Made by a program: the position numbers and the translations under genes
The notes under the pieces: generated by a model
Seen by the model: the letters and a program-made list of their open reading frames with translations, nothing else
Databases searched by the model: none
Told to the model about the DNA's origin: nothing
Source: Nannochloris sp. 'desiccata'
Lineage: Eukaryota; Chlorophyta; Trebouxiophyceae; Chlorellales; Chlorellaceae
DNA: 64,000 nucleotides
Reading direction: 5' to 3'
NCBI GenBank assembly: GCA_019044685.2
Contig: JAGTXX020000012.1
Span: 744,001 to 808,000 of the forward strand
Shown: positions 49,694 to 58,834 of the stretch, piece after piece
Position numbering within the stretch: the first letter of the stretch is position 1
Layout of the letters: each line of letters opens with the position of its first letter

Positions 49694-50680
49694 ATGGCTC
49701 CTGATCCCTTCAACAGCAGTAGAGCGCTTTCATTGCGGACGCCTCCGCTTCCTGTAAGATGCAATACTCTTCCAAATAGGTTCCAGAGAGCGGTACGCAA
49801 CGGCCTTCGCGCTGCTGGAGCTGCAGCATTTACAGGAGGGGCGGTGACCCTCGCCGGAGCCGGGAGTAGACCACTGGGCCTCAAGTACGTCATTTCCTTT
49901 CTATTTACTTCTCAATTTGACCATGAACTGGCATATTTTTAAGCAAATTCCTGACTAAAATATGAAAATTTGTATCCTTCTCTTTCCAGGACTAATGCAG
50001 CAGCACGTGGTCGCAGCCAAAACCCGTCGAGCAACCACGGCCTCCTTCCTCCGATTACTCTTACCAACGGCCTTATCTTAATGAACGCTCTTTTATTCGG
50101 GGCTCAAGTTTTAACTAAAGATGCACTCACCGTTCAAGGCGCCAAAGTAAATTCTCTCATCTTAGCTGGACAGTACTGGAGATTTCTAACCCCCGCCTTT
50201 CTTCATGGAAATTTAATGCATTTAGTAATCAATTGCTATTCTTTAAACAACTTAGCACCCATGGTAGAGACTCTCAGCGGATCTAAGCGATTATTGGCAG
50301 TGTATCTTGTCGCTGCTGTTGGTGGAAATGTAGCTAGTTTCTTCGGGAGTGCAGCTCCGTCATTGGGAGCATCTGGTGCCGTTTTTGGCGTCGGTGGTGC
50401 CTTGGGTATGTATTTTTATCAAAATAAAGAGCTTTGGGGTAAAAAGGCGGACTATATGCTGAAATCTTTATGGCAGACGCTGTTAATTAACCTGGTTTAC
50501 GGGCTAGCTAGTCCCAGGATCGATAATTGGGGCCATCTTGGTGGCTTAGCTGGCGGGGCAGTGGCGGCGTGGTTGTTGGGACCTCGACTTCGATTTAGGA
50601 AGGTAGGACGAGATACGTTTTTGGTGGACCAACCTCCGATTCGTTTGCTAGCGTCACCGACAAGGCAGGTGAAGCTGTAG
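49694..50680 (+). CDS. Rhomboid-family intramembrane protease, plastid type
   Basis: A 293-aa protein in two exons, 49694-49884 and 49990-50680, with a 105-nt intron (AA/GTACGT...CTTTCCAG). The N-terminal ~75 residues are Arg/Ala/Ser-rich, as in a plastid transit peptide. Catalytic Ser is in LGASGAVFGVGGALG and catalytic His in DNWGHLGGLAGG. The first-helix block YWRFLTPAFLHGNLMHLVIN with the conserved Asn supports an active rhomboid. The family cleaves membrane proteins within the bilayer; plant plastid members (RBL10/11) are the closest type. The substrate is unknown. The transposon copy 1 starts 104 bp after its stop codon. Confidence 0.92.
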
Positions 50681-50776: not shown

Positions 50777-50784
50777 ATTCAGGA
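50777..50784 (+). repeat. Left target-site duplication of element copy 1
   Basis: ATTCAGGA lies immediately left of the element and recurs at 51540-51547 immediately right of it. An 8-bp duplication is the hallmark of hAT transposition. Confidence 0.9.
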
Positions 50785-51539
50785 CAGTGCTTCGTTTAGC
50801 CGGCATATATGCCGAAAATGCCGGAAAATGCCAATTTTCCGGCATTTTCAGGCGCAGGAACAGGAAAAAATGCCGTGCAAAAAGTGCCGGAGCGGAGCTC
50901 CGGCGGGCCAGAAATGCCGGGGGAAAATGCCGTTTTTTTCGAAAATTTTGAAAAAATGCCGGAGATTTAGGCCAGTTTTAGAGTACTAAATTAACAAAAG
51001 TTCATTTGTAAGAGGTTATTCTCTCATTATCACTATGGATACCACTCGGCAGACCAATGATCAGGACTTAGTCCGAACTTTGGTTGCCCAGATCTTTGAT
51101 CGAGTCATGGCTGTCCAGCACTTGCAACAACCCATTGATTTGACTTCTTCTCCGTTCAAAGAACCTGCTTTGAAGGTATGTGATGTCATCTGTATGCTTA
51201 ACTTCTTAAAATAAGCCACCCAAATTCAAATCTGAATTTTCTTCCTTGTTGCAGAAGAGGAAAAAAGGTATGGAAGGCGAAGAAAAAGCGTCGTGGAGCG
51301 CATTTGTAGTTCCTTGTTTTTGCTTTTTTAAAGATGTAATCTAAAGAAATTCCAGCCATGTTTCAATAAGGCGCATCTGCGCTGCTCAGAAATAGTGCCT
51401 GATGCTGTCAAGAAAAAAAATGGAAAAAATGCCGGGGCAGAATCCAGAAAAAATGCCGGGGCAGAATGCCGAAAAACAGGCCAGGGACGAAAAAATGCCG
51501 GGAAAAAATGCCAGGCCAAAATCCTTAAACGAAGCACTG
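50785..51539 (+). mobile_element. Non-autonomous hAT-type transposon, copy 1 (755 bp)
   Basis: The ends are perfect 14-bp inverted repeats, CAGTGCTTCGTTTA. An 8-bp target duplication ATTCAGGA flanks it (50777-50784 and 51540-51547). Terminal CAGTG plus 8-bp duplication fits the hAT superfamily. Subterminal regions are packed with AATGCC/GCCGG repeats and hairpins: a 14-bp palindrome CGGCATATATGCCG (50801-50814), a 12-bp stem ATGCCGGAAAAT with 4-nt loop (50818-50845) and GCCGGAG/CTCCGGC (50886-50904). Near the right end a ~20-nt unit around AAAAAATGCCGGGGCAGAAT is repeated twice. There is no full transposase. It lies 182 bp upstream of the glucose-6-phosphate isomerase start codon. Confidence 0.9.
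51035..51344 (+). CDS. Small two-exon ORF inside transposon copy 1
   Basis: Exon 1 is 51035-51175 (47 codons) and exon 2 is 51255-51344, over a 79-nt intron (GTATGT...TTGTTGCAG); 76 aa in all. It begins MDTTRQTNDQDLVRTLVAQI. After the splice comes a basic run KKRKKG and then KASWSAFVV. The 'S-x-W-x-x-F'-like spacing resembles the first residues of a BED zinc finger, which opens many hAT transposases; the frame then ends within 11 codons. I infer it may be the leftover 5' end of a transposase gene after internal deletion. Translation is unproven. Confidence 0.45.
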
Positions 51540-51547
51540 ATTCAGGA
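51540..51547 (+). repeat. Right target-site duplication of element copy 1
   Basis: ATTCAGGA, an exact copy of 50777-50784. Confidence 0.9.
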
Positions 51548-58063: not shown

Positions 58064-58071
58064 ATGCGACT
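58064..58071 (+). repeat. Target-site duplication of element copy 2 (left)
   Basis: ATGCGACT, repeated exactly at 58827-58834 on the other side of the element. Confidence 0.9.
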
Positions 58072-58826
58072 CAGTGCTTCGTTTAAGGATTTTGGCCTGG
58101 CATTTTTTCCCGGCATTTTTTCGTCCCTGGCCTGTTTTTCGGCATTCTGCCCCGGCATTTTTTCTGGATTCTGCCCCGGCATTTTTTCCATTTTTTTTCT
58201 TGACAGCATCAGGCACTATTTCTGAGCAGCGCAGATGCGCCTTATTGAAACATGGCTGGAATTTCTTTAGATTACATCTTTAAAAAAGCAAAAACAAGGA
58301 ACTACAAATGCGCTCCACGACGCTTTTTCTTCGCCTTCCATACCTTTTTTCCTCTTCTGCAACAAGGAAGAAAATTCAGATTTGAATTTGGGTGGCTTAT
58401 TTTAAGAAGTTAAGCATACAGATGACATCACATACCTTCAAAGCAGGTTCTTTGAACGGAGAAGAAGTCAAATCAATGGGTTGTTGCAAGTGCTGGACAG
58501 CCATGACTCGATCAAAGATCTGGGCAACCAAAGTTCGGACTAAGTCCTGATCATTGGTCTGCCGAGTGGTATCCATAGTGATAATGAGAGAATAACCTCT
58601 TACAAATGAACTTTTGTTAATTTAGTACTCTAAAACTGGCCTAAATCTCCGGCATTTTTTCAAAATTTTCGAAAAAAACGGCATTTTCCCCCGGCATTTC
58701 TGGCCCGCCGGAGCTCCGCTCCGGCACTTTTTGCACGGCATTTTTTCCTGTTCCTGCGCCTGAAAATGCCGGAAAATTGGCATTTTCCGGCATTTTCGGC
58801 ATATATGCCGGCTAAACGAAGCACTG
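58072..58826 (-). mobile_element. Non-autonomous hAT-type transposon, copy 2 (755 bp)
   Basis: An inverted copy of the element at 50785-51539: the same 755-bp length, the same 14-bp terminal repeats CAGTGCTTCGTTTA, and no difference in the segments compared (the whole first ~180 bp, the internal ORF and the right end). It has its own 8-bp target duplication ATGCGACT (58064-58071 and 58827-58834), so it arose by independent insertion, not by duplication of a larger block. It lies between the divergent Tat-SF1 and PDIL5-4 genes, 96 bp from the first and 204 bp from the second start codon. Its right end faces Tat-SF1, the same arrangement as copy 1 to GPI. Confidence 0.9.
58267..58576 (-). CDS. 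Small two-exon ORF inside transposon copy 2
   Basis: The same 76-codon two-exon frame as in copy 1: exon 1 58436-58576, intron 58357-58435, exon 2 58267-58356. Reading frame and splice sites are intact in both copies, which fits recent movement. See the copy 1 entry for the possible transposase origin. Confidence 0.45.
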
Positions 58827-58834
58827 ATGCGACT
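58827..58834 (+). repeat. Target-site duplication of element copy 2 (right)
   Basis: ATGCGACT, an exact copy of 58064-58071. Confidence 0.9.

Follow-up and report, generated by a model that had tools for sequence, protein, structure and literature searches.

A non-autonomous hAT family and its full-length relative in the green alga Nannochloris sp. 'desiccata'

How has a transposon that encodes no complete transposase come to be copied, and what could be moving it? The question is raised by a 755 bp element at positions 50785-51539 of a 64,000-nucleotide stretch of the Nannochloris sp. 'desiccata' genome (C12:744001-808000, hereafter the window), which an initial annotation had read as a recently mobile hAT-type element with 14 bp perfect inverted ends and an 8 bp perfect duplication. 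Both structures are present as described: the two 14-mers lie at the ends of the element on opposite strands with no mismatches, and ATTCAGGA occurs on both flanks. At up to two mismatches the 14-mer matches the window four times (0.62 expected, with 0 of 100 shuffles reaching four), and these matches are the ends of the element and of a second copy at 58072-58826. The same annotation had found no complete transposase, which is right, yet the element is not empty, as it retains the first exon and first intron of the transposase gene of a longer parent element. Also kept are the parental sequence that precedes this gene, the start codon, the intron splice sites and the gene's 3' end. We regard the element as very probably a hAT deletion derivative moved in trans, a reading that partly overlaps two of the alternatives weighed below, namely mobilisation by another hAT transposase and an introner-like role.

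The whole genome (21,550,525 bases in 18 contigs) was searched for copies; 40 of 42 first-look candidates were scored, and the counts are lower bounds. At least 27 short units of 746-761 bp are present, sharing 98.8-100% identity, eight of which match the 755 bp sequence exactly, and the many copies with variable 8 bp duplications that the initial annotation expected were thus recovered. The exact 14-mer occurs 59 times genome-wide, against none for a reversed control pattern, and by hand tally 58 of these are the ends of the 27 units, of the 3245 bp parent and of a 382 bp relative (L033), together with one end of an older relative (L039). The remaining 14-mer, at C10:101533, was considered as a degraded or solo end and rejected, the likeness to the family extending over at most 15 bp and without a duplication. 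Each of the 28 duplications found is a perfect 8-mer that differs from all the others (26 in the short family, one at the parent and one at L033), whilst the inner unit of one composite copy (L021) has none of its own; no duplication of another length, which would have spoken against the hAT reading, was seen. Tallied by hand from alignment columns, 13 units form a subtype of 755-756 bp, including two truncated units of 746-747 bp, and a further 13 form a subtype of 760-761 bp set off by one substitution and a one-base deletion; a single unit (L019) shows the parent's state at the subtype marker sites. Beyond the subtype markers and homopolymer indels, no private substitutions were found in 20,447 bases (95% upper bound 1.5e-4 per site). 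The short family therefore appears to have been recently amplified, though gene conversion or assembly smoothing could add to the uniformity of its copies. A longer homopolymer run (T7/T8, alignment column 149) occurs in 8 of the 27 units, with both main subtypes represented, and in each of three pairs of units, adjacent or nested, the partners agree in its length, the two composites differing from each other; we dropped this run as evidence of linkage, the chance of three concordant pairs being ~0.2 by hand calculation.

A full-length relative encoding a transposase with the hATC domain had been predicted to lie elsewhere in the genome, and one was found at C10:466044-469288. This parent element is 3245 bp long, carries the same ends as the short copies and is flanked by CTCAGGAA; its size falls inside the 2.5-5 kb given for autonomous hAT elements, for which inverted ends of 10-25 bp are described (PMC3942097). 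Against the 755 bp copy it matches at 487 of 490 positions in the 5' part and at 273 of 279 in the 3' part, where the mismatch is a single 6 bp gap. The segment absent from the short copies lies between GGTAT at parent positions 483-487 and GGTAT at 2967-2971, and the identical deletion junction, with its 5 bp microhomology, in 27 units argues for one founder. Elsewhere in the genome the internal 2476 bp of the parent has only two partial matches (251 bp at 78% and ~335 bp at 65%), which makes this element the single candidate donor copy. The motif ATGCCG occurs eight times in the first 190 bp of the parent and four times in the last 130 bp but is absent from the intervening 2925 bp (background in the window, 0.355 per kb), and these arrays are putative transposase binding sites. 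With 27 short units against one full-length copy bearing an open transposase gene, the family is non-autonomous, as had been proposed, and it combines the features of miniature inverted-repeat transposable elements (MITEs) and deletion derivatives: short length, an incomplete transposase, ends in common with an autonomous element and many near-identical copies.

The parent transposase (P0001) is 100% identical to the annotated Nannochloris sp. 'desiccata' protein Ndes2526B_g05133 and carries the hATC dimerisation domain (PF05699, 23.2 bits, cut-off 21.4). A first protein search matched just this annotated copy, and an alignment query with two further hAT proteins of the genome raised the number to eight proteins. 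Residues D276, D347, W439 and E772 of P0001 are invariant in an alignment of three hAT proteins of the Nannochloris genome; by the hAT motif, D276, D347 and E772 would be the catalytic D, D and E and W439 the W of the RW motif, which is the basis of the likeness to hAT in DDE-type residues. The predicted fold is of Hermes type with an RNase H-like catalytic core, the link to Hermes being one of fold comparison only. The inverted ends of hAT elements are CAG-type, and those of the family, a 14 bp perfect inverted repeat, are CAGTG-type. Of 56 target positions counted, T2/A7 was found in 26 (p 0.0025), T3/A6 in 26 (p 0.0025) and T4/A5 in 18 (p 0.46); the target preference of Ac is nTnnnnAn. That of Buster elements is reported as nnnTAnnn (PMC3517528), and the weak T/A bias seen here leans away from Buster without being decisive as a clade marker.

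We propose that one internal deletion in a 3.2 kb hAT element, joined at the 5 bp repeat GGTAT, would have given rise to a derivative of ~760 bp in which the 5' part of the transposase gene survived, together with the inverted repeat and the subterminal array of either end. Transposase from the full-length copy, or from a close lost sibling, would bind the ends of the derivative in trans, and the short element would be excised and reinserted at 8 bp staggered sites, for the most part away from long reading frames. This burst would be recent enough that the copies carry no private substitutions. We infer that the C10 transposase is the one moving the short copies, and the family may still be active. 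Several observations weigh against this account. Two intron positions separate the parent from all 27 short copies, which makes it a sibling of the founder's source and not the literal ancestor. The zinc-finger (BED-like) domain PF25431 scores 21.9 bits in the transposase, under its cut-off of 29.5, the AlphaFold 2 model is only moderate (predicted local distance difference test score 68.9, predicted template modelling score 0.56), and a phmmer search of solved structures by sequence, Hermes included, gave no matches up to E 10, a point of difference from the known hAT transposons. Finally, other hAT transposase frames in the genome could cross-mobilise the short family.

If such cross-mobilisation were the rule, the family would be hAT-derived and moved by another hAT transposase of the genome, with the single 3245 bp copy as a bystander. 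Further hAT frames are present (e.g., at C14:524505-526925 and C14:543360-545030) and the C10 parent is a single candidate donor, but of the loci recovered the C10 copy alone joins the same ends and arrays, with 98-99% sequence identity to the short copies, to an open gene, and we consider the bystander explanation improbable.

A second alternative is that the short element behaves as an introner, being spliced out upon landing in a gene and so creating introns. Its ends hold the necessary dinucleotides (GT at positions 3-4 and AG directly ahead of the last five bases), and in Aureococcus introners are described with both splice sites, an 8 bp duplication and 12 bp added (PMC9860276). The element was removed in silico at 25 short-family sites, the parent and L033, with 400 random positions of the window as controls; this test registers long reading frames and does not tell apart untranslated regions, short exons and existing introns. 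A reading frame of at least 150 aa was restored at 1 of 27 sites as against 61% of the random positions, and median frame lengths were 81 aa and 182 aa, respectively (Mann-Whitney p 7e-8). Introners insert into coding exons as a rule and are spliced; here 26 of 27 sites lie outside long frames, a distribution that counts against the family acting as introners in general.

At one locus an insertion does lie within a reading frame: L025 (L078; C6:2758405-2759164, on the gene's strand) interrupts an open frame of 575 codons. The joined frame matches 13 database proteins, of which six were aligned (P0009-P0014) and P0015-P0021 left out. P0010-P0014, 71-86% identical to P0009, are continuous across the site, so the initial annotation's comparison with close relatives yields an empty site in five of five, for this one insertion and at the protein level. 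In P0009 (Ndes2526A_g03564), the alga's own annotated protein, three residues replace 22 at the site. Donors up to 300 bp upstream were searched, with acceptors between the element start and a point 30 bp beyond its end, and the sole GT/AG pair in that range yielding P0009 joins a host donor (GTATGC) to the acceptor TTAAACGAAG in the 3' inverted repeat; the gene model thus excises an 825 nt intron, of which 70 bases come from the host and 755 from the element, whose 760 bases are included up to the last five. Removal at the element's own GT..AG would leave 7 + 8 = 15 in-frame bases, adding five residues and no stop at L025, which recalls the 12 bp added by the Aureococcus introners. The gene model places one copy of the element in a predicted intron, but it swaps 22 residues conserved in the relatives for three and ignores the element's own donor. 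Weighed with the site test, this makes it improbable that the short element works as an introner, and equally so that hAT ends doubling as splice signals mark a family at the start of becoming one.

The remaining alternative, that the copies stem from segmental or assembly duplication, would suit their near identity and has a precedent in an older pair of relatives (L035/L036) which is a true segmental duplication with a common target duplication, but no two of the 26 duplications in the short family have the same 8-mer and the neighbouring bases differ too, which refutes it for the 755-761 bp family and leaves it a negligible chance.

The family adds a new member to a well-known class of element, a hAT deletion-derivative family with its parent gene still open. 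With hAT elements such as Ac, Hermes, hobo and Tip100 it shares 8 bp duplications, short CAGTG-type ends, the hATC domain and a Hermes-like predicted fold. It resembles Mar of Drosophila willistoni, which is described as comprising short, hAT-ended internal deletion derivatives with 8 bp duplications and recent amplification; in that account the full-length Mar copies are relics and the duplications are nnnTAnnn (PMC3517528), whereas the Nannochloris parent has an open gene and its family's duplications favour T/A at positions 2/7 and 3/6. In Auxenochlorella, another trebouxiophyte, cut-and-paste families including hATs are reported, to which the present family is likened by description only, and many cut-and-paste insertions there are polymorphic between haplotypes (PMC12633428). 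Algal introners are likewise portrayed as MITE-like, with inverted ends, an 8 bp duplication (in Aureococcus) and splice signals at the ends (PMC9860276), but the Nannochloris insertions lie outside long frames and splicing appears only in one public gene model. No description of the family was found among the literature titles listed, a set that does not include the paper on this alga's genome (Sanders et al. 2022), and the family is possibly undescribed. Nannochloris desiccata, formerly Chlorella desiccata, belongs to a genus placed in the Trebouxiophyceae (PMC12633428).

An open transposase gene and 27 near-identical short substrates at mapped sites would make up a complete two-part transposon system. 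Its host is an oleaginous green alga with a streamlined 21.6 Mb genome, in which transposition is directly testable and which could provide a tool for insertional mutagenesis, whilst the L025 gene, for which splicing into the inverted repeat is predicted, offers a test case for a cut-and-paste element starting intron-like behaviour.

Two copies are composites. L020 (C7:459639-461161) is a head-to-tail nested pair in which one unit sits inside the inverted end of another, with the 8 bp duplication GGCTAAAC within the outer unit and CTCTGAAT around both units. L021 (C9:479267-480774) has the same arrangement but without the outer stub, and CCCCAATG flanks the whole pair; most simply, this composite would have moved as one unit via the far end of the outer unit and the near end of the inner one. 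Two independent insertions at the same spot are the alternative for these copies, the composites differing in a homopolymer.

Older relatives (L033, 382 bp; L035, 906 bp; L036, 922 bp; L039, 771 bp) retain the outer 29 bases, in which one or two positions vary, and have ATGCCG near the ends, with diverged interiors. The duplication of L039 matches at 7 of 8 positions and part of the hATC coding region is retained; this is an older deletion derivative of independent origin. L035 (C15:943528-944433) and L036 (C15:313818-314739) lie within a duplicated segment that extends over at least 2.9 kb (98.4% identity) and have one common target duplication.

The other hAT transposase frames on C14, L057 (824 open codons, 39% identical) and L058 (559 codons, 44%), are ~16 kb apart. 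Three equal-score matches to the transposase C-terminus at 45% identity (C12:66029-66187, C11:520845-521003 and C12:500435-500593; L066, L065, L064 region) perhaps belong to another repeated hAT-derived family. As to viral carriage, the 29 bp extended end has no exact match in the viral_contigs collection and a peptide-pattern search there found transposase relatives in none of 103 matching stretches, though the collection may omit near records.

Features of the element and of its second copy in the window
Feature	Position	Strand	Detail
Non-autonomous hAT element, 755 bp	50785..51539	+	MITE-like internal deletion derivative; 8 units of identical sequence
5' terminal inverted repeat	50785..50798	+	CAGTGCTTCGTTTA
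3' terminal inverted repeat	51526..51539	-	perfect
Target site duplication, left copy	50777..50784	.	ATTCAGGA
Target site duplication, right copy	51540..51547	.	ATTCAGGA
5' subterminal region	50785..50974	+	8 ATGCCG motifs (both strands counted); probable transposase binding region
Palindrome	50814-50849		16 bp arms, within 5' subterminal region
3' subterminal region	51410..51539	+	4 ATGCCG motifs
Retained transposase exon 1	51035..51175	+	47 codons
Retained transposase intron 1	51176..51254	+	GT..AG, 79 bp
Exon-2 start joined to transposase 3' end	51255..51344	+	basic stretch KRKK; joined out of frame
Stop codon TAA	51342-51344	+	closes 76-codon frame (exon 1 + exon-2 start/3' end fusion)
Internal deletion junction	51267..51271	+	GGTAT microhomology
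Second copy	58072..58826	-	identical to first
Second copy, target site duplication, left copy	58064..58071	.	ATGCGACT
Second copy, target site duplication, right copy	58827..58834	.	ATGCGACT

The spliced frame that remains in the short copies has 76 codons in the 755 bp type and 74 in the second subtype, and this predicted 74-76-codon frame, with its basic stretch, could act as a transposase-related peptide. In the window (GC content 44.9%) the first copy lies 104 bp downstream of a rhomboid-family reading frame (49970-50680), and a glucose-6-phosphate isomerase gene apparently starts 174 bp beyond its duplication.
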